Origin: a virus | DNA: 64,000 nucleotides | Virus record (IMG/VR): IMGVR_UViG_3300020183_000065 | Span: 1-64,000 of that record | Reading direction: 5' to 3' (one strand) | Shown: positions 10,046 through 44,185 of the stretch, piece after piece | How the letters are laid out: each line of letters opens with the position of its first letter | Position numbering within the stretch: the stretch's first letter is position 1 | Made by a program: the position numbers and the translations under genes | Notes under the pieces: model-generated | What the model saw: the letters and a program-made list of their open reading frames with translations, nothing else | The model's database searches: none | Told to the model about the DNA's origin: nothing

Positions 10046-12415
10046 ATGGCAGATAAAAGAATATCACAATTACCTTACGTTGGGAATACTGGTTATACAA
10101 CTAGTGATTTAATAGCTATAGTAAACTATGATGTGCCGAGTGGTACAACAAAACACACACCATTAAGTCAGTTTTTACCTTACGTTTTAAGTGGGGTAAC
10201 ATCTGGTGGCGATATTGTGAGTGGAACGTATTTCCCATCATCGGGATTATTACAATTAGATAATTCTACTGGGGGTACAATAAATATAACTGGATACCAG
10301 TATGTTGTTGGTGGGTCTTATAATGACATAACTGAAGAATTAACCCTAACAAATAATGACGGTACTACAGTTGTTATCCCGGGATTTACTGATTTATATT
10401 TCACGGGAATGACCTTCCAAACCCCATCTATGGATTTGACGATAACTAGAAACGATGGGTTTAGTGATACCGTAAGTTTATTACCGTTAATTGGTGATAC
10501 ATTTGTTACTGGTGGAACTTATGATTTAAATACTGGTGACGTACAATTTACAAATAATACTGGAGGTACGTTTATTGTGACTGGATTTGTAACCGGTTAT
10601 ACTGATCATTATGTGACGGGTGGTACTTATGATATAACAACTGGTACATTAGACCTTGACACACAAACAACTACAGCTACAATAACTGGTATTAATATTT
10701 TACATGAAATAGGTACCGGTATAGAATCAATCCAAAGGATAAATGTAAGTTCAGATTCTTTTGGTGATTACTCATCTGTACTTGGTGGGGAAGGTAATAC
10801 ATCTAACACGTCACACAGTAATGTTAGTGGTGGATACTATAACACTTCTGAAGGTTGCTCAACAACCATTAGTGGTGGTTATTGTAACACAGCGTCAAGA
10901 TGTTATTCAGTTATTAATGGTGGTATATCCAATTTTTCAAACGGTAGATGTTCAGTTATTAATGGTGGTTCTAATAACACAGCTATTGGTATTTCATCAA
11001 TAATTGGTGGTGGTAATTTAAATACAACTGAAACCACTGGGATAATCGGTGGTGGTGAGTTTAACACAATAACTAACAACGGATCTAATTCGGTAATAAT
11101 TGGTGGACAATACAACACTTCAGATGGTACATATGGTAGTATTTTAGGTGGTGCTTCAAATGTTGTGGTACTAAGTTCTGATTTAACAACAATTGGTGGT
11201 GGATCCGAAAATACAGTCCTATCAAATTATGGAAATATTAATGGTGGATTTTGTAACACAATATGGGGACCAAATGATTGTTCGGTAATTGGTGGTGGAT
11301 TTAAAAATAAAATAATACGTACTAACTCACTTTCAGTTATAGCTGGTGGGTCTTGTAATATTAGTGATGGGATACATAATAATATATCCGGAGGATTCCA
11401 AAATACATCATATTCTTTTTGTTCCGTAATTGGTGGTGGATGTAAAAATACAGTATGGAATACTGGATTAGGGTCCACAATCGGTGGTGGTTCGTTTAAC
11501 ATATCTTTAGGTGGTCAATCCGTAATAGCTGGTGGGTGTGGTAACACATCATACGGTTCTTGTAGTTTTATTGGGGGTGGTTGTCAAAATACCACTTTTG
11601 GTGATGACTCGATTGTTGTCGGTGGTTACCTAAATAAGTCAACAGCTCTTTGTTCAACTCTTGTTGGGGGGTCAAACAACACGTCATCGAACAACGGTAG
11701 TTCGGTTCTTGGTGGATCTAATAATGTTAGTAGTGGAGCTTTCTCAATAGTTGGTGGTGGTAACGGTAATACATCTTTGGGTTGTCGTTCAGCGGTTGTT
11801 GGTGGAATTCAAAATACATCAACATCATCACACGGATTTATTGGTGGAGGTTGTCGAAATACATCCTTGGGTAATTGTTCGATAGTTATCGGTGGGTTAA
11901 GAAATACAACACAATCAAATTATAATATAGCCTATGGTTGTGGAGCTTCAACAACCAGATACGGTCAACATAGTTGGTCTGTCAATACATTTTCATCACC
12001 CGGTGACAATCAAAAGGTTGAGTTTTTAATGTCCAATTTAACTTCAAACGCTACACCGACTAAACTTTATTTAGATGGTGTTGGTAATACTTTTGGATTG
12101 TCAGTACCTCTAAATAAGTCAATGTTTTTGACCGTGTCAATTTCAGCGGTACAAGAAAACGCGTTGCCTTCATGTGGTATTGGGTGTTCAGCTCACTACA
12201 TTAGAAAAGTAGCTGTTAAAAATATTGGTGGAAACACTCAATTAATTGGTACTGTTTCAACTATAGGTACTGATATGGAAAACAACACTTCTTGGAATGT
12301 CTCGATTACTGCTAACAACGTTATAGATGAGTTAGAAGTATTTGTTACTGGTCAGTTAGGAGCTAACATACGTTGGACAGCCCATGTGGTTGGTGTAGAA
12401 ATGTCTTGGATTTAA
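10046..12415 (+). CDS. Tail fibre with about 25 autotransporter-like beta-roll repeats
   Basis: The 789-residue protein has a short virion-attachment-like N terminus (MADKRISQLPYV, then a PLSQFLPYVLSG segment typical of fibre bases), three beta-rich repeats with VTGGTYD or TGGTFI turns (residues 80 to 220), and from about residue 245 to 630 some 25 copies of a 15 to 18 residue unit with the consensus I-x-G-G-x-x-N-T-S followed by a turn and S-V or S-I. This is the head-type beta-roll of trimeric autotransporters and other adhesins. Around 16 repeats carry a cysteine at similar places. The last 160 residues begin with AYGCGASTTRYGQHSW and form a fibre C-terminal domain of the kind that follows such rolls. 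It is likely the host-binding fibre, and is Ser/Thr/Asn rich. Confidence 0.8.
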   Translation: MADKRISQLPYVGNTGYTTSDLIAIVNYDVPSGTTKHTPLSQFLPYVLSGVTSGGDIVSGTYFPSSGLLQLDNSTGGTINITGYQYVVGGSYNDITEELTLTNNDGTTVVIPGFTDLYFTGMTFQTPSMDLTITRNDGFSDTVSLLPLIGDTFVTGGTYDLNTGDVQFTNNTGGTFIVTGFVTGYTDHYVTGGTYDITTGTLDLDTQTTTATITGINILHEIGTGIESIQRINVSSDSFGDYSSVLGGEGNTSNTSHSNVSGGYYNTSEGCSTTISGGYCNTASRCYSVINGGISNFSNGRCSVINGGSNNTAIGISSIIGGGNLNTTETTGIIGGGEFNTITNNGSNSVIIGGQYNTSDGTYGSILGGASNVVVLSSDLTTIGGGSENTVLSNYGNINGGFCNTIWGPNDCSVIGGGFKNKIIRTNSLSVIAGGSCNISDGIHNNISGGFQNTSYSFCSVIGGGCKNTVWNTGLGSTIGGGSFNISLGGQSVIAGGCGNTSYGSCSFIGGGCQNTTFGDDSIVVGGYLNKSTALCSTLVGGSNNTSSNNGSSVLGGSNNVSSGAFSIVGGGNGNTSLGCRSAVVGGIQNTSTSSHGFIGGGCRNTSLGNCSIVIGGLRNTTQSNYNIAYGCGASTTRYGQHSWSVNTFSSPGDNQKVEFLMSNLTSNATPTKLYLDGVGNTFGLSVPLNKSMFLTVSISAVQENALPSCGIGCSAHYIRKVAVKNIGGNTQLIGTVSTIGTDMENNTSWNVSITANNVIDELEVFVTGQLGANIRWTAHVVGVEMSWI
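10775..11940 (+). repeat. About 25 degenerate beta-roll coding repeats of 45 to 54 bp
   Basis: The DNA repeats a GGTGG-rich core followed by AAYAC(A/T) (Asn-Thr) about every 48 bp. The repeats differ at third positions and in length, so they are old and under protein-level selection rather than recent expansions. They give the shadow reading frames on the minus strand in this stretch. Confidence 0.75.
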
Positions 12416-12502: not shown

Positions 12503-15460
12503 ATGATATCACAAGAAGAAATTAAAAATTTCCTAGAAGGGAATGATCCGGAAGAATATATTGTTTCCGTTGAGTTTGATCACAAATCAGATCACATTTA
12601 TAAAATTAAAGAAGTACCGGGTAAAGGTAAGTTGGTACAAAGAGATTCACTGATAGCTTTTGCTTGGGTTGGGGATTTAAGGGGTATGAACTTTTACAAA
12701 TCATCCAAGGACCAACAAAAAGAAGCTATGTCTAAATACGGTATAATGATTGAAAAATTGCGTACCGATGGAAATGAAAGACTTGAATCCGGTCTTACAT
12801 TTATGGTTAAATCTTTAAAAGGGTACAGGTCATTAGTTCAGTTTTTTAGGGATGGTGGACTGGATCCATGGGGTGAAAAATCAAAAAATAAAATTTTAAT
12901 ATTAAATCCGGTAGAACAATATTTAATCTCAAAAGAAAAAAGATTATTTAAAGGGTTTGAGGAGTATAATGATATTACTAGACTTGTATTCGACTTGGAG
13001 ACGACCGCTTTGGAACCAAAGGATGGTCGTATATTCATGATTGGGATTAAAACTAACAAGGGTTATAAAAAGGTAATTGAGTGTTCCGATGAAGATGAGG
13101 AACGTAGGGGTATAACAGAATTTTTCAGAATTATAGATGAAATTAAACCATCAATAGTAGCTGGATATAACTCATTTAACTTCGACTGGAATTGGATCTT
13201 TGAGAGGTGTAAGATGTTAAACTTGGACATTAAACGAATATGTAAGTCATTATCACCAGAAAAATCTATATCACAAAAAGACTCCTTATTGAAATTAGCT
13301 AATGAGGTTGAGAAATTCCCCCAAACTCAAATATGGGGTTATAACGTAATTGATATTTTACACTCGGTTCGTAGAGCTCAAGCGATAAACTCAAACATTA
13401 AGGAAGCTGGTCTTAAGTATATTACAAAGTTTATTGACGCTGAAGCTGAAGATCGAATTTATATCGATCACACCAGAATTGGTCCTATGTATAGAGATAA
13501 AGAAGAATATTGGTTAAACATTAAAAATGGTAACTATAAAAAAGTTGGTGTTGATTCTAACATAGATGAGGTTTGTGAAAGAAGAACTGACACATATATA
13601 AAAACAACTGGTGATGATATTGTTGAGAGATATCTTGACGATGACTTAGAAGAGACGTTATTGGTGGATGATGAATATAATCAAGGTTCATTTCTTCTAG
13701 CGTCGCTATTACCAACAACGTATGAGAGGGTGTCAACCATGGGTACAGCTACTCTTTGGAAAATCTTAATGTTAGCTTGGTCATATAAACATGGGTTAGC
13801 TGTTCCAGGTAAACAAGAAAAACGTGACTTTGTTGGTGGATTATCTAGATTAATAAAAACTGGGTATTCTAGAAATGTATTAAAACTTGACTACTCATCA
13901 CTATACCCATCAATTCAATTGGTTCATGACGTGTTCCCAGAATGTGATGTTACTGGGGTTATGAAAGGTTTATTATCATACTTTAGAAATTCTCGTATTA
14001 TGTATAAGAATTTAGCTGAAGAGTATTCCACAATAGATAAGAAAAAATCATTATCATTTGACCGAAAACAATTACCGGTTAAAATATTCATTAACTCCAT
14101 GTTTGGCGCGTTATCAGCTCCTCAAGTATTTCACTGGGCTGATATTGATAAGGGTGAAATGATTACCTGTACTGGTAGACAATATCTTCGTATGATGATA
14201 AATTTTTTCATGGATCGTGGATATGTACCATTAGTTATGGACACCGATGGTATTAACTTTTCAGTACCTGACGGAACTGAATCTAGAAGATATATTGGTA
14301 AGGGTTTAAACTGGAAAGTTGTTGAGGGTAAGGAATATGTTGGTGAGGAAGCTGATGTAATGGAATTTAATGACCTGTCAATGAGAGGTGAAATGGCGTT
14401 AGATACTGATGGTCAATGGCCAGCGTGTATTAATTTAGCTAGAAAGAACTACGCACTTATAACAGCTAAAGGTAAAATAAAACTAACCGGTAATAGTATT
14501 AAGTCAAAGAAGATGCCAAAATACATTGAGATATTTCTAGATAAAGGTATTAAATTATTACTAGATGGTAAAGGTCAGGAATTTATTGAGTGGTACTACG
14601 AGTATTTACAAAAAATTTGTGATCAAAAAATTCCACTATCTGAAATAGCTAACAAAGGTAGAATAAAACAAACTGTAAAAGACTATAAAATACGTAGTAC
14701 ACAAAAAACAAAAGCTGGTAGTTTAATATCTAGACAAGCTCACATGGAACTTGTAATTAAGGATGATTTAAATGTTAGTCTGGGAGATGTCATTTACTAT
14801 GTTAATAATGGAACAAAAGTTTCACAAGGTGATGTTCAGAAAGTTAACAAACCAAAGAAGGGGTGGAGTGAAGAACAGGTGAGATTGTTCTTTTCACAAG
14901 GTGAAAGATCAGATTATAAAAATAAAGAACAATTCCTATTAAACAACGGTTGGGAAAAATCTTGGTCGGATGATAACTGGGTACGTAGTGACTCTAAGTA
15001 TAAGGAAGCGAATAACGGTGTACCAACAGACGTAGCGTATAGAGCGGCTAATTCAGATTCTGTCATACAACTTAATTGTTATAGAATTGATCCGTCAGAT
15101 TTAGAGAATAATCCTGGAATGTTAGGTGAATACAACATACCTAGAGCGGTATCAACATTTAACAAACGGGTAGAACCTTTGTTAGTGGTTTTCGATAAAG
15201 AAATTAGAGATTCTATATTGGTATCAAATCCGGAAGATAGATCATTTTTCACTAAAGAACAATCACGACTAATAAACGGACAACCCTTTGAGGAGAAAGA
15301 TCAGGATGATTTATATCGAGATGTTATGGAAATAACAAATGATGAGAAATTATTTTGGGAAAAAGTGGGGGTTAGTCCTTATCACATGTATAAAAACGCT
15401 GACCCACTTATGTTAAAGTATGTAGATGAGGATGAATTAGTCAATCTTCAGTCCGTCTGA
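12503..15460 (+). CDS. gp43: Family B DNA polymerase with 3'-5' exonuclease
   Basis: The 985-residue protein is a T4 gp43-type replicative polymerase. Exonuclease motif I is FDLETTAL (D164, E166), motif II is AGYNSFNFDWNW (near 227). Polymerase motif A is LDYSSLYPSIQ (D462), motif B KIFINSMFGALS (near 531), and motif C VMDTDGINF (catalytic DTD at about 579 to 581). All catalytic residues are present and the length is normal, compared with 898 in T4; the excess is mostly in the last 300 residues. It has its own host-type promoter and a leader hairpin and no Shine-Dalgarno sequence. It overlaps the convergent gene at 15437 by 24 bp at the 3' ends. Confidence 0.95.
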   Translation: MISQEEIKNFLEGNDPEEYIVSVEFDHKSDHIYKIKEVPGKGKLVQRDSLIAFAWVGDLRGMNFYKSSKDQQKEAMSKYGIMIEKLRTDGNERLESGLTFMVKSLKGYRSLVQFFRDGGLDPWGEKSKNKILILNPVEQYLISKEKRLFKGFEEYNDITRLVFDLETTALEPKDGRIFMIGIKTNKGYKKVIECSDEDEERRGITEFFRIIDEIKPSIVAGYNSFNFDWNWIFERCKMLNLDIKRICKSLSPEKSISQKDSLLKLANEVEKFPQTQIWGYNVIDILHSVRRAQAINSNIKEAGLKYITKFIDAEAEDRIYIDHTRIGPMYRDKEEYWLNIKNGNYKKVGVDSNIDEVCERRTDTYIKTTGDDIVERYLDDDLEETLLVDDEYNQGSFLLASLLPTTYERVSTMGTATLWKILMLAWSYKHGLAVPGKQEKRDFVGGLSRLIKTGYSRNVLKLDYSSLYPSIQLVHDVFPECDVTGVMKGLLSYFRNSRIMYKNLAEEYSTIDKKKSLSFDRKQLPVKIFINSMFGALSAPQVFHWADIDKGEMITCTGRQYLRMMINFFMDRGYVPLVMDTDGINFSVPDGTESRRYIGKGLNWKVVEGKEYVGEEADVMEFNDLSMRGEMALDTDGQWPACINLARKNYALITAKGKIKLTGNSIKSKKMPKYIEIFLDKGIKLLLDGKGQEFIEWYYEYLQKICDQKIPLSEIANKGRIKQTVKDYKIRSTQKTKAGSLISRQAHMELVIKDDLNVSLGDVIYYVNNGTKVSQGDVQKVNKPKKGWSEEQVRLFFSQGERSDYKNKEQFLLNNGWEKSWSDDNWVRSDSKYKEANNGVPTDVAYRAANSDSVIQLNCYRIDPSDLENNPGMLGEYNIPRAVSTFNKRVEPLLVVFDKEIRDSILVSNPEDRSFFTKEQSRLINGQPFEEKDQDDLYRDVMEITNDEKLFWEKVGVSPYHMYKNADPLMLKYVDEDELVNLQSV

Positions 15461-15796
15461 AGAAAGTATGTACCAATTATTATCCACAAAAAATAATTGT
15501 ACACACGAACCTTTTTCCATCATTAGTTCGTCCCACTCCTCATCAATTTTACCAATGTCTGGTTTAACCAAAACTGTTGTTAGTGATTTAACAATAATCA
15601 TATGATTATCCACAGAATTTAATGTTATTGTTGATTCTTCGATACCCCTAACAATTAATAGTGTCTCGTTTGAGACTTTATAGTCCGGTATATTTACCAC
15701 CTTACTAGTTGGTTTTTTATTTACCGGAATACTAATTGTTTGTGGACCCTTCATCACTGTCTTTCTTGGTGATATGTTTGTAATTTTAAATGACAT
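15437..15796 (-). CDS. Small virion-type protein, convergent with DNA polymerase
   Basis: The 119-residue product is the last of the minus-strand operon. Its ATG lies within the end of the preceding gene (11-nt overlap), so translation is likely coupled. It is beta rich; the end reads CVQLFFVDNNWYILSSDG, a pattern common at the end of phage virion proteins that carry a compact beta-sandwich. There are no known catalytic motifs. Its 3' end overlaps the polymerase coding strand by 24 bp. A virion or neck-associated role is guessed from the gene that precedes it. Confidence 0.45.
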   Translation of the reverse strand: MSFKITNISPRKTVMKGPQTISIPVNKKPTSKVVNIPDYKVSNETLLIVRGIEESTITLNSVDNHMIIVKSLTTVLVKPDIGKIDEEWDELMMEKGSCVQLFFVDNNWYILSSDGLKID

Positions 15797-16913
15797 AAAT
15801 TTGATTTGGCATTGCTCTAAACTTTAAAGACTTATTTAGATTCTCAGCGATTAACGCTTCACGTTCCATTACCTTTTCAGGTTTAAGTCTTGTTAGTCTA
15901 CCTTCAGCACCTATTAATTCCTCAATTAATTTTGTTTTTTCATCTTTAGCTTCGGTTGCTAATGAAGTGTAATCCATTGTTAAATCACCATCTGGGGTTT
16001 TTAGATTTCCACTGAATTTACCACGTACTCTAGATAAAGTTTCCTTACAGTAAGCTATGAACCATCTTCTAACCCAAATCTGTGATGGATTATTTAAGTC
16101 AACCCAACTCATCTTATCAAACGGTACATCTGACGGCATTGTGATAATGTCTGGATTTAATTTTAAACATTTATCCCTATCTTCCGGACCAACATCATAA
16201 TACCAATACCAAACTTTACCTCTTGTTAATGTTGAGTTTCCGAAATCAAATTTTCCACCTGGTGTATTCATTAAGTGAATAGCTTTTTTACCATCAGGTA
16301 GTGCTGTAACTCGATATGTTAAATCACCAACAATTATTCTTCTTTGAATATTAATTTCCTGCATTCGTAATAACATATCAAATACTGGCATCATAAAATA
16401 ACTACCACCCATATTTCCCATCTGTGCTAGTCCTCCACCACCACCGAGTCCTCCACCAACACCCAAAGCTCCAAAAGACCAAGGATCGAACATTGTATTA
16501 TTTAACTCAGCTGGGGTAAACCATAATAATTCATTTAACTCTCTATTAGCTGGTATCTCGTATATTTGTTGATTTGGTACTAATTGAATATAATCTTTTT
16601 TCAAAACATAGTCACCTCCGGTTTGTAGTCCAACAATTTTTGAATAAGCGTATGTATACCTAGTTTCATAATCCAAACTTCTGGTTGTAAATGCTCTCGT
16701 TAAGGATTGTGTATCCATGTTTAGATTATATAAATTTGCCCATTGGGATTCAATTAACCAGTCTTGGATGTATTGTGAGTATTCATCAATTGAGAACTCC
16801 AATAAGGTGTCCATTTGTTCGTCCTCTAATTCTACACTTCTTTGTGGAGCACCAAGTAAATGTCTTATTTGGGTGTATAACTTACTTCTTTCAGGTTCTT
16901 GAATTATTGCCAT
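15786..16913 (-). CDS. Probable neck or connector virion protein (gp13-like position)
   Basis: The 375-residue protein has an alpha-helical N terminus (IRHLLGAPQRSVEL, then LLEFSIDEYSQYIQDW), a beta-rich centre (YIQLVPNQQIYEIP), a Gly-rich loop at 148 to 170 and a C-terminal region with WVRRWFIAYCKETLSRVRGKF followed by a long charged helix with REALIAENLN. Proteins of this layout in T4-like marine phages are annotated as neck or head-tail connector proteins; I recognise the layout only in general. The ATG at 16913 stands 13 nt behind a minus-strand TATTTATA octamer, the spacing of other virion genes, which supports a late virion role. Confidence 0.5.
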   Translation of the reverse strand: MAIIQEPERSKLYTQIRHLLGAPQRSVELEDEQMDTLLEFSIDEYSQYIQDWLIESQWANLYNLNMDTQSLTRAFTTRSLDYETRYTYAYSKIVGLQTGGDYVLKKDYIQLVPNQQIYEIPANRELNELLWFTPAELNNTMFDPWSFGALGVGGGLGGGGGLAQMGNMGGSYFMMPVFDMLLRMQEINIQRRIIVGDLTYRVTALPDGKKAIHLMNTPGGKFDFGNSTLTRGKVWYWYYDVGPEDRDKCLKLNPDIITMPSDVPFDKMSWVDLNNPSQIWVRRWFIAYCKETLSRVRGKFSGNLKTPDGDLTMDYTSLATEAKDEKTKLIEELIGAEGRLTRLKPEKVMEREALIAENLNKSLKFRAMPNQIYVI

Positions 16914-16936: not shown

Positions 16937-18034
16937 TTATTGTTTTGTTCTAAGAAGATATAACTCATTAACAAATTCCCAATTAACATGATTCCAAAAC
17001 TTTTTAATATATTCATCACGTTTGTTTTGATATTTTAAATAATAAGCGTGCTCCCATAAATCTAAACCCAAAAGTGGGTACCCCCCGTCTTTAATGGTGT
17101 TCATTAGTGGATTATCCTGATTAGGTGTTGATACAATTTTTAATTTATTTGTTTTAGTTAGAACCAACCAAACCCACCCGGACCCAAATCTATCTTTAGC
17201 TACCGATTCGAATTCATCTTTCATTTTTTTAATATTTCCGTATTGTTTGGTAATTTTTTCATAAACCTCACCTTTAGGTACTTGTTTTTTTGGTGATAAC
17301 ATTTTCCAGAATAACGCGTGGTTAAAAGCACCCCCAGCGTTATTTCGAATCACATCATTATACTTACTAATAGTTTTGAGAATACTTTCCAATTCAAGAT
17401 CACCTTTAATATTTTTTTTAGATAACGCGTCGTTTAATTTTTTAACATACCCTTTATAATGTTTGTTATAATGGATGTCCATAGTTTTTGGGTCCACAAA
17501 TTGACTCATGGATGAATATGAGTATGGTAATTTTTCTATTCCGATTTTTTTCATTTCGATTAATAATTCAGACCTTAAATTTGTTTTTTCCTGAATTATT
17601 AATTGTTCACTGATTAATGTTAATTTTTTTTCTATCCCAGATAAACTTTCATAAACTAAGTTTTCATACTGGGGGTGATCACGTTCAAACATTTTAACTA
17701 GTCGACCAGCATACGCGTTCGCTTCATCTTCATTCTGACCACCAATGTCCTCACCACGTTCACGACCTAAAACATCTCTTTGGTATTCGTGAACCCATTC
17801 GTGAGCTAGTGTTCTTAATACGTCACGGTTTAATCTATTTTTAGTTAAAACTTTTATACCTCGTTCTGGGTGGTGACCACCAGTTGACATACTACCAATT
17901 CGTTCACCAACAAAATTTATATTAATTTCTCTTTTTATTGGAATTTTTTTCTGTAGGTATTTAATAAAGTCATCGGTTAATTTTCTGTCTTCCGAGGACA
18001 TATCACATTTAATATGTTTTACATTAACTTTCAT
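16937..18034 (-). CDS. Zinc-metalloprotease-like domain fused to a Mn-type superoxide dismutase
   Basis: Residues 1 to about 160 contain LAHEWVHEYQ, a full HExxH zinc motif (H78, E79, H82), followed by NEDEANAYAG in which E104 could be the third ligand, as in gluzincin proteases. Residues 163 to 363 form a complete bacterial superoxide dismutase: metal ligands H188 (MDIHYNKHY), H239 (GGAFNHALFW), D325 and H329 (LDLWEHAYYLKYQN), with the second-shell H192, Y196, W327 and E328. Gly-Gly at 234 to 235 and Gln306 (STPNQDNPL) are the marks of Mn rather than Fe enzymes. All key residues are present, so the dismutase is probably active. No signal peptide is visible. It lies between a helicase and a virion gene in a minus-strand operon. 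Confidence 0.85.
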   Translation of the reverse strand: MKVNVKHIKCDMSSEDRKLTDDFIKYLQKKIPIKREININFVGERIGSMSTGGHHPERGIKVLTKNRLNRDVLRTLAHEWVHEYQRDVLGRERGEDIGGQNEDEANAYAGRLVKMFERDHPQYENLVYESLSGIEKKLTLISEQLIIQEKTNLRSELLIEMKKIGIEKLPYSYSSMSQFVDPKTMDIHYNKHYKGYVKKLNDALSKKNIKGDLELESILKTISKYNDVIRNNAGGAFNHALFWKMLSPKKQVPKGEVYEKITKQYGNIKKMKDEFESVAKDRFGSGWVWLVLTKTNKLKIVSTPNQDNPLMNTIKDGGYPLLGLDLWEHAYYLKYQNKRDEYIKKFWNHVNWEFVNELYLLRTKQ

Positions 18035-18066: not shown

Positions 18067-19878
18067 TTACCTACGTTTATTTATTAGATTTAAAATTTCC
18101 TCAACCATATCACCACTGGTTTGTTCAATATCACCATCACCCATAACCGTTCTGATAACTTGTTTCTTATTGTTTAAGATATCATATATTATACCTTCTA
18201 TTGTGTTATCAAATAGGGGGTAATAAACTAATACATTATTTTTTTGACCATATCTGTAAGCTCTGTCTTCAGCTTGTGAATGTTCGGCAGGAACAAATGA
18301 TAAATCATTCATTATAACAACCTCAGCGGATGTTAGTGTTAAACCGACACCAGCAGCTTTTAAATTTCCGACAAATACTTTTATTTTTTCATTTTCTTGG
18401 AACTGATCTACAGCGTATTGTCTTTGTTGTTTTGAACAACTTCCGTCCAGATAAACAGATTCTTTTTTAAAATGGTTATGTATTATTTGTAGTGTGTCTG
18501 TAAAGTTTGTAAAAATGATTACTTTTTTACCTTGGTCGATAATATTCTCAGCAATCTCAATTGTTTGGTTAACCTTTTCATTGGCTATAATTTTTCTAAC
18601 CTTCATTAACTTAGAGAATTGTACAGTCAGTGATGATGATTCATCAGGGTTTTTATCGTACCATTCGTAGTACTCACCCATAACTTCTTCGTATTCTTTA
18701 GATTTCAATCTTAAGTATATTGGTGATATTATTTTTTCAGGTAAGTCTAGTACATCTTCTTTTAATCTACGTAGAATTTGTTTTGATGTTCTATCCCGTA
18801 ATTCCTCCAGGTTTGAAGCTCCGGAAACATTCCAAACTTTTCTATTACCAGCTCTGAATTGGTAACCTTGACAATACCTTATAGCGTAAGCCATCCAGTT
18901 TTGAGCTACAGGACTTTCAATTATGGATAATAAATTATAATAGTTCATGGGTCTAGATGTCATTGGTGTTCCGGTTAACAACCAAACGTATTTAATACCT
19001 TTAACAAAATTATTAATTACTTTAGTCCTTTGTGCTTGTGAGTTGGATACCATGTGAGCTTCGTCTAAAATGACCAAATCAAAATTTGACTGTATAATTA
19101 ATGACTCATCTCGATTCTTTGGGTCGTGAAAATTTTTTATAATATCATAGTTAACAATCACAAAGTCATGTTCTGTTGAAAATTTTTTACCTTCACAGAT
19201 ATAGACACTACGATCTGAATAATTTTCGATTTCCCTTTGCCAATTTATTTTTAAAGAAGCTGGACAAATTATTAATATTTTTTTTGGTCCAGACTCAAGT
19301 GCGGCAATAATTGTTGAGGTTGTTTTACCGAGTCCCATGTCGTCAGCCAAAATATATCTTCTAGAACCTACTAATTTTTCGATAGCTTCTTTTTGGTGGG
19401 TCAGTGGTGGTCTGTGTGAATATTTAGTGTAATCAATTGATACGTCTTTAGTTGATTGGGATTTAATTAGTGATGACCTAGGAACCCAAAATTCACTTAA
19501 TTGGTCTTCATCAAAAAATTTAGCCCAAATGTGGTAAGATTTTTCTTTCTCAACAAGAAGTTTCTCAACATAAACTTTTTCAGGAACCTTAAGTAGGTAT
19601 CTTTCATCTGAAAATTTTTTAGCGAAGTACGAATCCAGATCAACCCATTTTCTAGCTATCTTTGGTATTGTATTAAAATAATTAACAATATATTCAGCTT
19701 GGGTTCTAGTCGGGTAGAATTTTTTATTTGTTTCTTTTTTGTTTTTCAAAAACAATATATAGTTATTGGACCCAGAATACGTATCGAGTAGGTCCAATGA
19801 TTTATGTTCTATAAGTTGTTGACTGATATCCAAAATACCTTTTATTTTAAAAATAACAAAAATTTTAATATTTATCAA
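18067..19878 (-). CDS. SNF2-family DNA helicase/translocase
   Basis: The 603-residue protein has motif I YILADDMGLGKTTS (K185), motif II VILDEAHM (D272, E273, H275), motif III WLLTGTPMTSRP, and in the second RecA lobe VIIFTNFTD, GVGLTLTSAEVVIMN and the motif VI QAEDRAYRYGQ. The last is typical of SNF2/SMARCAL1-like enzymes. T4-like phages often use the shorter UvsW here for fork regression, so this may be a functional replacement. There is no ATG before the helicase core. The longest frame starts at TTG 19878; a second TTG at 19833 behind an AAAATAAAAGG stretch is an alternative. It is the first gene of the minus-strand operon and lies divergent from the gene at 19892. Confidence 0.85.
   Translation of the reverse strand: MINIKIFVIFKIKGILDISQQLIEHKSLDLLDTYSGSNNYILFLKNKKETNKKFYPTRTQAEYIVNYFNTIPKIARKWVDLDSYFAKKFSDERYLLKVPEKVYVEKLLVEKEKSYHIWAKFFDEDQLSEFWVPRSSLIKSQSTKDVSIDYTKYSHRPPLTHQKEAIEKLVGSRRYILADDMGLGKTTSTIIAALESGPKKILIICPASLKINWQREIENYSDRSVYICEGKKFSTEHDFVIVNYDIIKNFHDPKNRDESLIIQSNFDLVILDEAHMVSNSQAQRTKVINNFVKGIKYVWLLTGTPMTSRPMNYYNLLSIIESPVAQNWMAYAIRYCQGYQFRAGNRKVWNVSGASNLEELRDRTSKQILRRLKEDVLDLPEKIISPIYLRLKSKEYEEVMGEYYEWYDKNPDESSSLTVQFSKLMKVRKIIANEKVNQTIEIAENIIDQGKKVIIFTNFTDTLQIIHNHFKKESVYLDGSCSKQQRQYAVDQFQENEKIKVFVGNLKAAGVGLTLTSAEVVIMNDLSFVPAEHSQAEDRAYRYGQKNNVLVYYPLFDNTIEGIIYDILNNKKQVIRTVMGDGDIEQTSGDMVEEILNLINKRR
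19869..19876 (+). promoter_or_regulatory. TATTTATC octamer, candidate late promoter element
   Basis: The octamer ends 15 nt before the ATG at 19892. It overlaps the TTG start of the divergent helicase gene, which weakens that TTG as the true start. Confidence 0.45.
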
Positions 19879-41578: not shown

Positions 41579-41806
41579 ATGAGTAATACAAAATTAATTT
41601 TAGATAACTACCTTGGAAAAAACACTAGAGTTAGTGAAAAAGATTCCGGTAATGGGTATAAAGAAGTTTGTGATTTGGATACTGGTGATTGCTACACAAT
41701 CAGAATGAAAGATGGTCTAATTGAAAGGGTTGATAATACCATGAATAAATTTAAAAAAATTCAAGTTGAAACCACTACTGGAATTAAACAATTATTAAAC
41801 GGATAA
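41579..41806 (+). CDS. Small conserved-looking protein of unknown function
   Basis: The 75-residue product has KEVCDLDTGDCYTIRMKDGLIER, two cysteines around a D-T-G-D turn, a strand and a helical end. No family is recognised. It shares a promoter-like octamer and probably a message with the next gene, which starts one base after its stop. A role in tail or baseplate assembly is suggested only by the location after the hub gene. Confidence 0.5.
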   Translation: MSNTKLILDNYLGKNTRVSEKDSGNGYKEVCDLDTGDCYTIRMKDGLIERVDNTMNKFKKIQVETTTGIKQLLNG

Positions 41807-41807
41807 A

Positions 41808-42515
41808 ATGAGAATAGACGAAAAAATAATCAAAGAAATCGAAAGATACAATACTATTAATAAATATATTGTAGAACAAGTAGAACTGGATCCAGCTGCC
41901 GCACCAGTTGACGAACCAACAGATCTACCACCAGTTCCTGGTGAGGGAACCGATGTAGGGGTTCCACCACCAACAGGGGATGTTCCACCAGTGGGAGATG
42001 TTCCACCAGCAGGAACTACACCACCCACACCACCATCCGGTCCAGAACCAGTTGATGTCACTAAAGATCCGGACGTTGAGGAATTAGGTAATGAAGAAAA
42101 CACTGATGAAGAAGGTGAAACTGAGGAATTAGACATTACTGACTTGGTTGACACACAAAAAACAATGTCGGACAAACAGGAAGAATATTTCGATAATTTA
42201 TTTAATCAATTAAGTTCATTAGAATCTAAATTAGGTGAAATGGACACATTGGTCAACAAGATTAATGATTTAGAAAATAAACTGGAAAAATATAGACCTA
42301 AAACACCACAAGAAAAATTAGAATTAAGGTCTCTAGATTCCGGACCATTCCAACAAAAATTGTCAGACTTCTTTGTTGATAAACAAGAAGAAATGGAAAA
42401 GTCAGGTAAAAACGAATATGTCTTAACAACGGATGATGTTTCGGAGTTTTCACCAAAACAAATTGAAGACACCTTTAATACTTATGATGAGGAGAATCTT
42501 AAAAACTTAAGATAA
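41808..42515 (+). CDS. Pro-rich and coiled-coil virion-type protein
   Basis: The 235-residue protein has a short charged helix at residues 1 to 25 (IIKEIERYNTINKYI), then a Pro/Gly/Val/Thr-rich low-complexity stretch (residues 28 to 85), an acidic segment (EELGNEENTDEEGETEEL), a coiled coil (DNLFNQLSSLESKLGEMDTL and NKINDLENKLEKY, about 125 to 165) and a C-terminal helical domain ending EENLKNLR. The layout fits a structural adaptor or scaffold that connects two complexes. It is the last gene before a terminator. Function is unknown. Confidence 0.5.
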   Translation: MRIDEKIIKEIERYNTINKYIVEQVELDPAAAPVDEPTDLPPVPGEGTDVGVPPPTGDVPPVGDVPPAGTTPPTPPSGPEPVDVTKDPDVEELGNEENTDEEGETEELDITDLVDTQKTMSDKQEEYFDNLFNQLSSLESKLGEMDTLVNKINDLENKLEKYRPKTPQEKLELRSLDSGPFQQKLSDFFVDKQEEMEKSGKNEYVLTTDDVSEFSPKQIEDTFNTYDEENLKNLR

Positions 42516-42518
42516 TAG

Positions 42519-42546
42519 AATGGGACCAAAAGTCCCATTTTTTTTT
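42519..42546 (+). terminator. Intrinsic terminator before the replication module
   Basis: AATGGGAC (42519 to 42526) and GTCCCATT (42532 to 42539) form a perfect 8-bp stem with a CAAAA loop and a T run. Confidence 0.9.
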
Positions 42547-42556
42547 GTTCCACTAC

Positions 42557-42585
42557 TTGACAACCTAATTTATTTATCTTATACT
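42557..42585 (+). promoter_or_regulatory. Promoter of the SSB gene
   Basis: TTGACA (42557 to 42562), 17 nt and TATACT (42580 to 42585) form a near-perfect sigma70-type promoter; read as TTG-N20-TA-TA-CTTA it is also close to the Bacteroidota type. The leader is about 25 nt and AU rich. Confidence 0.55.
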
Positions 42586-42596
42586 TACAATTGTAA
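42585..42596. promoter_or_regulatory. 12-bp palindrome at the SSB transcription start
   Basis: TTACAATTGTAA is a perfect palindrome directly after the TATACT box, where an operator would block initiation. It could equally be a short hairpin or chance in AT-rich DNA. Confidence 0.3.
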
Positions 42597-42616
42597 ACTT
42601 TTAATTTATATATTTT

Positions 42617-43477
42617 ATGGCGACAAATGTCTTAGACGCGGTACTAGCACAGTACGAACAATCAAAACAAAGTGGTTCTTCCTCCACTTCAAAAATGTCT
42701 CAGGAAGAGAGAATGAAAAAATATTTCGCAGCAATCCTTAAGGATACTGAGAAACAAGGTCAACGAAGAGTTAGAATCCTACCAACAAGTGACGGATCAT
42801 CACCATTTAAAGAGGTTTGGTTTCATGATCTCCAAGTAGATGGTAAGTATCAGAAATTTTATGACCCAGGAAAAAATGACAATGAACGTTCACCTTTAAA
42901 TGAGGTTTACGAAACTTTAATGTCAACCGGGAAAGATTCTGACAAAGAACTAGCTAAACAATACAAAGCACGTAAGTTTTATATTGTTAAAGTAATTGAT
43001 CGTGATAATGAACAAGACGGAGTTAAGTTTTGGAGATTTAAACACAATTACAAACAAGAAGGGATTCTTGATAAAATAATTCCAATCTGGAAAGCTAAGG
43101 GTGATATTACAAATCCAGAAAATGGTAGAGACTTGATCCTTGAACTAACCAAAGCTAAAACACCAAAGGGTGGGGTATACACGGTAATCCAAACAATTAT
43201 GTATGATGACCCAAGTTCAATTAGTAGTGATTCTGATTTAGCTAACGAATGGGTTAATGATGAATTAACTTGGGAAGACGTGTACTCTAAAAAACCAGTT
43301 GAATATCTTGAGGCTATCTCTAGAGGGGAAACACCAAGATGGGACTCAGACGCTGGAAAATATGTCTACTCTAATGACGTTGAAGAAACCACAACAATTG
43401 GTGGTGGATCAAAATCAATCAATGAAGTAGAAGATCCACAAGTTAATGACGATATTGACGAGGAGTTACCATTCTAA
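42617..43477 (+). CDS. gp32: Single-stranded DNA-binding protein, gp32-like
   Basis: The 286-residue protein begins the replication module. It has a flexible Ser-rich N terminus, a core with RRVRILPTSDG and WFHDLQVDGKYQKFYDP, KARKFYIVKVIDR and KFWRFKHNYKQEG, which fit the OB fold of T4-like gp32 proteins, and an acidic tail ending DDIDEELPF. It has no cysteine, so the zinc site of T4 gp32 is absent. The C-terminal tip resembles the D-D-I-P-F tip of bacterial SSB, so it may dock host or phage replication proteins. It probably coats ssDNA for UvsX and the helicase. It is regulated by a strong promoter and possibly by binding its own AU-rich leader, as T4 gp32 does. Confidence 0.85.
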   Translation: MATNVLDAVLAQYEQSKQSGSSSTSKMSQEERMKKYFAAILKDTEKQGQRRVRILPTSDGSSPFKEVWFHDLQVDGKYQKFYDPGKNDNERSPLNEVYETLMSTGKDSDKELAKQYKARKFYIVKVIDRDNEQDGVKFWRFKHNYKQEGILDKIIPIWKAKGDITNPENGRDLILELTKAKTPKGGVYTVIQTIMYDDPSSISSDSDLANEWVNDELTWEDVYSKKPVEYLEAISRGETPRWDSDAGKYVYSNDVEETTTIGGGSKSINEVEDPQVNDDIDEELPF

Positions 43478-43488
43478 TTTTTAATATA

Positions 43489-43523
43489 CTTGGACATCTA
43501 CCTAGATTAGGTGTCCAAGTTTT
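43489..43523 (+). terminator. Terminator-like hairpin after the SSB gene
   Basis: A 12-bp stem (43489 to 43500 with 43508 to 43519, one T-G pair) with a CCTAGAT loop is followed by only TTTT, so read-through is likely. It may reduce expression of later genes relative to SSB. Confidence 0.7.
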
Positions 43524-43534
43524 ACTATAAAAAA

Positions 43535-44185
43535 ATGAAAGTATTGTGTTTTACCCCAAGTTTTAATCGGTATAAAATGTTAAGAGGATGTGTACAGGAT
43601 ATAAATAGTCAAACATATCAAGATATATTCCACTCAGTAAATATTACAATGGAAAGATCCACGCATCAAAAAAATTACATCCAAAAAATATTTGACGATG
43701 TTAAAACCAATAAAAATAGTTTCACTTACACATTAAATCAACACCAACATACAAATCACATTAATACAATTTTAGCTGTGGAGAATTATGAAGAGTATGA
43801 CATTTTTGTTAAAATAGACGATGATGACATATATAAAAAAGATTACATAATGAACATAGTTAATTTCTTTAAAGAAAACGATGTAGATGTCCTATCCTCA
43901 ACAATAAGGTATCAGTTAAATGGAAACGTTGTAAGATTGGTTAACACTCATAATTTAGGAGCTAATCCAGAAAATTGTGATTTTAAAATACCAGCTACAT
44001 TTGCTTTTAACTTAAAAAGTTTTAATTTAATAAAAACCCTATCAAAAATTTACGGATTTGAGGATAACATGTGGAGAGACGTTTGGTGTGAAAATAAATG
44101 TAAAATATGTGAAATAGATAACACCGAAAATATAATTTGGAATATACACGGAAAAAATACATCAACATCTAATTTTTTAATTTAA
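43535..44185 (+). CDS. GT2-type glycosyltransferase inserted in the replication module
   Basis: The ATG at 43535 is preferred to a GTG at 43511 that lies in the hairpin, giving 216 residues. The sequence opens KVLCFTPSFNRYKMLRGCVQ, which is the N-terminal strand of GT-A family 2 enzymes, and has FVKIDDDDIYKKDYI with a D-x-D site. The protein is short, lacking a C-terminal helical domain. It is out of place between SSB and UvsX, in a region otherwise made of DNA metabolism genes. It may modify DNA bases or a protein, or be an accessory gene gained later. Base composition is like its neighbours. Confidence 0.75.
   Translation: MKVLCFTPSFNRYKMLRGCVQDINSQTYQDIFHSVNITMERSTHQKNYIQKIFDDVKTNKNSFTYTLNQHQHTNHINTILAVENYEEYDIFVKIDDDDIYKKDYIMNIVNFFKENDVDVLSSTIRYQLNGNVVRLVNTHNLGANPENCDFKIPATFAFNLKSFNLIKTLSKIYGFEDNMWRDVWCENKCKICEIDNTENIIWNIHGKNTSTSNFLI

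Follow-up and report, generated by a model that had tools for sequence, protein, structure and literature searches.

The window analysed here is a 64,000-nucleotide stretch of viral DNA (positions 1 to 64,000 of IMG/VR record IMGVR_UViG_3300020183_000065). A gene on its minus strand at 16937-18034 (ATG at 18034, TAA at 16939-16937) encodes a 365-aa protein in which an N-terminal zincin domain is joined to a superoxide dismutase (SOD). A reading-frame check gave 365 codons with no internal stop, and the opposite (+) strand of the same interval contains many stops. The zincin (gluzincin-like) domain spans residues 1-130 (17645..18034), an (L/I)xE-rich interdomain linker residues 131-160 (17555..17644), and the Mn-type SOD domain residues 161-365 (16940..17554), all on the minus strand.

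Upstream, in the same operon, lies a gene for an SNF2-family helicase (18067..19878, minus strand; PF00176, 2.1e-30; phrog_62, 1.3e-111). Downstream are a gene for a neck/head-tail adaptor-like protein (15786..16913, minus strand; phrog_211, 5.1e-11 over a short stretch) and, at the end of the conserved cluster, one for a 119-aa protein with no family match (15437..15796, minus strand), which is also found downstream in relatives. The order helicase, fusion, neck-like protein, 119-aa protein is kept in relatives wherever the flanks are present. The phage origin and the helicase and neck-like neighbours described in an earlier note on this DNA are supported. Two of the helicase ORFs (L029 and L071) carry an intein-like insertion of ~368 aa after residue 185, near the motif ADDMGLGKT, which the window helicase lacks. 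Elsewhere in the window, 10046-12415 (+) encodes a protein of 789 aa that is rich in GG..NTS-type repeats and looks like an adhesin or fibre.

The earlier note had proposed that one phage gene joins an HExxH domain to an SOD, and had named a join error between two genes as the finding that would overturn this. To look for the same two-domain order in viral sequences, we scanned IMG/VR for close relatives. At least 592 stretches were confirmed, making the zincin-SOD family a common one, and the identical fused ORF architecture was present in 80/80 loci among the matches listed. Together with a second scan started from a divergent member, the IMG/VR contigs yielded at least 74 distinct fused sequences, which rules out a sequencing or assembly join as the source of the fusion. 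Residue invariance was judged on aligned distinct alleles, 56 in one set and 48 in another. In the fused alleles so examined, H78, E79, H82, E102, E104, H188, Y196, H239, Q306, D325 and H329 are invariant; the zinc-motif residues (H78, E79, H82) and SOD residues (H188, H239, D325, H329, Q306, Y196) named earlier all lie at those numbers. With the closest members set aside, identity to the window protein is 72-86% in the SOD part and 49-62% in the zincin; no part of the fusion is better conserved than the SOD.

Pfam recognizes both halves of the SOD, in order and at full length (Sod_Fe_N, PF00081, 3.7e-19; Sod_Fe_C, PF02777, 6.6e-40), and the closest solved structure is the superoxide dismutase 6gsc (E = 1e-60), followed by the Mn-SOD 5a9g. 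With these the phage domain shares its full length, the metal ligands His, His, Asp, His (H188, H239, D325, H329), the second-shell residues Y196 and Q306, and the motifs RNNAGG..NH and STPNQD. Judged from these matches and the invariant residues, the domain is a complete SOD of the Mn type, as first supposed. It differs from these enzymes in being fused and in forming a separate group on a long branch, with at most 53% identity to the Bacteroidia SODs sampled; the tree grouping of the phage SODs has low support (48/0). Recent capture of the SOD from a Bacteroidia host is thus unsupported, given a best host identity of 53% and the long branch between the groups. SOD matches in many INPHARED records filed as phages of Staphylococcus, Salmonella, Enterococcus and Listeria (OR850395, OR850012, OR844989, OR845917, OR851122, AFYI01000005, AGRM01000004 and similar) look like bacterial DNA and were set aside.

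In Pfam, no family reaches its cut-off with the HExxH domain of the window protein, M78 (PF06114) included. Members of the zincin family do match M78 (up to 6.5e-5; 16/48 members), SprT-like and M76, and the window zincin is best described as a fold related to Peptidase M78 and not classed as M78. An AlphaFold2 model of the domain (mean pLDDT 86.6) has the order strand, N-terminal helix, strands, HExxH helix, Glu helix. In BFVD its fold is matched by phage proteins; several carry the annotation IrrE-N-like or SprT-like (annotated ones down to 2e-7), and several are long chains of many domains. Fold matches in the PDB are weak (Wss1, YbeY and M61, E ≥ 3e-3), and a PDB profile search with the zincin returned chance-level matches only.

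In a joint alignment of fused and stand-alone zincins, H78, E79 and H82 (17789..17803, minus strand) and E102 (17729..17731, minus strand) are invariant, giving the pattern HExxH-x19-E, with the spacing of gluzincins. E102 is most likely the third zinc ligand, because even distant stand-alone homologues keep it without exception; E104, an earlier candidate for this role, is replaced by Q or R in some of these and was dropped. The model, with its zincin topology, places the HExxH helix in a protease-type fold, as the earlier note had wished to see checked. Its metalloprotease reading holds for the predicted fold and the zincin ligands, and the domain can be called a zincin on both grounds; protease activity is a prediction that lies outside this support.

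Stand-alone homologues of the zincin occur in cyanophages S-SRM01 and B23 and at 80 further IMG/VR loci. They share the motifs NRHPxDxxRTxxHExxHxxQ and ENEANxxAG with the fused form and lack the SOD; the S-SRM01 copy sits among replication genes. The B23 protein (L119:1327-1701) begins MNYKQFLRES, which resembles a T4-type capsid targeting peptide. A cellular origin of the fusion was rejected after a zincin scan of 84,980 genomes gave a single relative, without SOD. This relative (L117:7-222, 51% identity over 69 aa) comes from a Flavobacteriales MAG, where it lies at a contig edge and its neighbours are ordinary bacterial genes.

The window's fusion and 27 others (28/74 alleles in all) end after the SOD, and the remaining 46/74 continue into a C-terminal extension of type A (n = 22), B (n = 13), C (n = 3) or D (n = 8). 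We considered whether the long ORFs were SOD-neck fusions and rejected this, as the extensions (65-600 aa) consist of different domains and a separate neck gene comes after them. Type A has conserved DFE, P(Y/F)D and SCK motifs (model pLDDT 80.6), and its best fold matches are the restriction endonucleases NhoI and Eco15I, then PvuII, all weak (best E 0.02). Most members of type B carry GQDFD...QVK. These two commonest extensions look like PD-(D/E)XK nucleases, B by motif alone; none of the extension types has a Pfam match above cut-off, and PDB profile searches with A and B gave only chance-level matches. Both A and B also occur as stand-alone proteins with (L/I)NE-type N-termini. Seven loci in the same gene neighbourhood encode SOD-B-A without the zincin, and within one 194-kb record of this group no zincin match was found.

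The gene is thus a modular array with swappable C-terminal modules, a feature beyond the earlier note. That note's picture of an odd two-enzyme fusion was right as to the fusion and missed the large modular family with its extra C-terminal modules, hence our reading of the protein as a polyvalent-type precursor. Polyvalent proteins of phages and conjugative elements are multidomain, and many are predicted to be packaged in the head (Iyer et al. 2017, PMC5512222). Like them, the window family combines at least two unrelated enzyme domains in one polypeptide with domain shuffling; the domain most often found there is a zincin, with the same core of N-terminal helix, three strands, HExxH helix and Glu helix (PMC5512222). 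The SNF2 ATPase is also a known polyvalent-protein domain (PMC5512222). Two differences are the conserved (L/I)xE linkers and the place beside structural genes. In addition, the word 'superoxide' occurs 0 times in that paper, whereas the window family contains an SOD. A possible second protein of this type is encoded by a relative, G003 (41587-44094, minus strand; within L107-L108): it has 835 aa, with several modules split by the same xES/LNEN-type linkers and a first part that by eye is DHH phosphoesterase-like.

The SOD is present in every fused architecture seen (zincin-SOD, zincin-SOD-A, zincin-SOD-B and SOD-B-A). Fe/Mn-SODs are dimers or tetramers. The domain could accordingly act mainly as a dimerising scaffold that pairs the zincin or the nuclease, with catalysis incidental. 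We regard this as very unlikely, since the metal ligands and second shell, which scaffolding does not need, are invariant in the alleles examined.

Motifs of the (L/I)xE type stand at nearly every module junction. In the zincin-SOD linker, residues 141-143 and 158-160 read [IL]xE in 74/74 alleles; the middle residue varies, as do most positions neighbouring the two motifs. These form two candidate head-protease sites on the minus strand, I-S-E143/Q (17606..17614, cut after E143) and L-I-E160/M (17555..17563, cut after E160), with P3 I or L and P1 E throughout, and a cut after E160 would release an SOD of normal length. The density of [LIV]xE is 10 per 100 aa in the linker, compared to 0.9 in the zincin and 1.3 in the SOD, and shuffled linkers yield 1.3 (L/I)xE motifs against 3.1 observed, the motif being a short one. 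At the extension junctions, [LIV]xE[SNAT] occurs within the first 24 residues in 44/46 cases, compared to 8% of windows inside extensions and 0.05% inside domains, in counts that ignore shared ancestry. The linker is predicted to be helical in the AlphaFold2 model, and a coiled coil could account for part of its I/L/E pattern.

Which enzyme would read these motifs? One answer is the zincin itself, an autoprotease with cargo that cuts its own linkers. In polyvalent proteins no domain is more frequent than the zincin, which has been proposed to process them (PMC5512222), and here HExxH and E102 are invariant. However, the zincin-less homologues begin LLKES-ILIKE-DILSE-A just ahead of the SOD and have similar motifs at their SOD-B and B-A junctions. 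Because (L/I)xE persists where the zincin is absent, the interdomain motifs are probably read by an enzyme other than the zincin. The linker motifs also fit the rule of another protease, gp21, described below. Self-processing is thus a doubtful explanation, and processing of a virion protein, offered earlier as a reason for the fusion, is less favoured.

Free SOD could also arise by translation from M161, yielding SOD alongside the fusion with no need for proteolysis. M161 is invariant (74/74), and T4 gene 21 is likewise annotated with an internal start. Yet the zincin-less homologues have A at this position and begin upstream, and M161 doubles as P1' of the second candidate site. We consider an internal start very unlikely.

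The T4 protease gp21 cuts its substrates behind L/I-X-E, and proteins are directed to the T4 head by short targeting sequences (PMC9026906). The junctions of the window family follow this substrate rule, with (L/I)xE at E143 and E160 and [LIV]xE at the extension junctions in the proportions given above. A gp21-like head protease was found in 9/15 records searched, all relatives. One of them, the jumbo relative G001, encodes a terminase, a portal, a gp21-like protease and a T4-like capsid protein. Capsid proteins of eight records carry an INE/AT site (mostly SFLINE/AT, cut after E), which by eye, beside an alignment gap, stands near the place of SFLTE/AE in T4 gp23, where the cut falls after E. 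A related motif is enriched at N-termini ~fourfold in G001 and G003 and ~2.5-fold in G004, in counts that again ignore shared ancestry. A head module was not found in the window phage's incomplete fragment or in a 95% relative. A small ORF of G002 (107092-107292; L440) is 35% identical to residues 16-85 of the major capsid protein, and the ends of the G001 record (L082 1-7471; end of L096) contain long repetitive frames, with GTNGTSGTNGT at the end, that are probably collagen-like repeats.

The likeness to the T4 internal proteins and Alt (PMC9026906) thus lies in the L/I-X-E cutting rule and in the related protease, capsid protein and capsid site of the clade. The arrangement differs. In T4, a small targeting propeptide sits at one end of a single cargo, whereas here the motifs stand between several enzymes of one chain, and where the T4 proteins are cargo in the head, a head location of the window family's protein is a prediction. 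Nothing like a targeting sequence stands at the N-terminus of the window protein, whose motifs sit between domains. Another protein of the window (41808-42515, +; 235 aa) starts MRIDEKIIKEIERYNTINKYIVEQ, continues with proline/acidic sequence and resembles targeting-type N-termini.

The main rival to packaging is a cytoplasmic auxiliary metabolic enzyme. The fusion would then stay in the infected cell, where the SOD would shield phage production from superoxide in late infection, the zincin would serve as a protease in regulation or quality control, and the linkers would be plain helical spacers. Such a role would agree with the complete active site and strong conservation of the SOD and with the missing N-terminal targeting sequence. 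Unfused Fe/Mn-type SODs, 25-28% identical to the window's, are moreover encoded by the jumbo phages PA5oct, MIJ3 and Callisto and by Vibrio phage 2.275.O, and in jumbo phages such a gene adjoins clpX, clpS, ibpB and ftsH, a cluster of stress and proteolysis functions. These SODs are stand-alone, and that of Callisto sits in a stress-gene cluster. An auxiliary role would leave unexplained why the junctions carry (L/I)xE, why nuclease modules can be swapped, why the gene keeps its place beside structural genes and why there is an SOD fusion in the first place, and we judge it possible, if somewhat unlikely.

The hosts of the clade are predicted to be Bacteroidota, and the phages large and lake-dwelling. 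The host assignment is made because the head module of G001 contains, on the opposite strand, a gene for ribosomal protein bS21 (L094:16837-16986; G001 256837-256986), as is also the case in freshwater Bacteroidetes phages (PMC9723584). In G002, G005, G008 and G009, S21 falls just below the Pfam cut-off.

We propose that the fusion is a polyvalent-type precursor of T4-like jumbo phages of freshwater Bacteroidota that is packaged in the head, cleaved and injected, a reading that in our judgement stands about even. The precursor would be made alongside the late structural genes and enter the prohead, where the gp21-like head maturation protease would cut the linkers at (L/I)xE sites, freeing the zincin, the SOD and, in many relatives, the nuclease modules. 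The freed enzymes would be injected with the DNA; the SOD would then remove superoxide that would otherwise hamper infection, and the zincin and nuclease may act on host or defence targets. The earlier suggestion that the protein is packaged in the virion accordingly stands as a possibility that the junction motifs support, with packaging itself still a prediction.

More tentatively, and with somewhat less than even confidence, we suggest a phage polyprotein: protease, SOD and nuclease would enter the head as one chain, the capsid maturation protease would split it into separate enzymes, and their joint injection would deliver ready-made antioxidant protection along with the DNA. Superoxide is a plausible obstacle to infection: when the host lost sodB, a T4-like Campylobacter phage plated at 0.30 (PMC6024767), although a later paper puts the figure at 61%, a modest effect (PMC8540345). 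Neither a zincin-SOD fusion nor an SOD as a phage virion protein turned up in the literature searched, outside which many subscription papers lie. Unfused phage SODs and zincin-bearing polyvalent proteins are known, and we found no SOD-containing polyvalent protein described.

If the proposal is correct, a redox enzyme would be added to the effector domains of polyvalent phage proteins, and this would suggest that large phages of aerobic lakes have to cope with superoxide on entry or shortly afterwards. The linkers, with their conserved (L/I)xE motifs, would amount to a simple rule for unpacking a multi-enzyme chain inside a T4-type head, one that may also help to recognise injected proteins of other jumbo phages.
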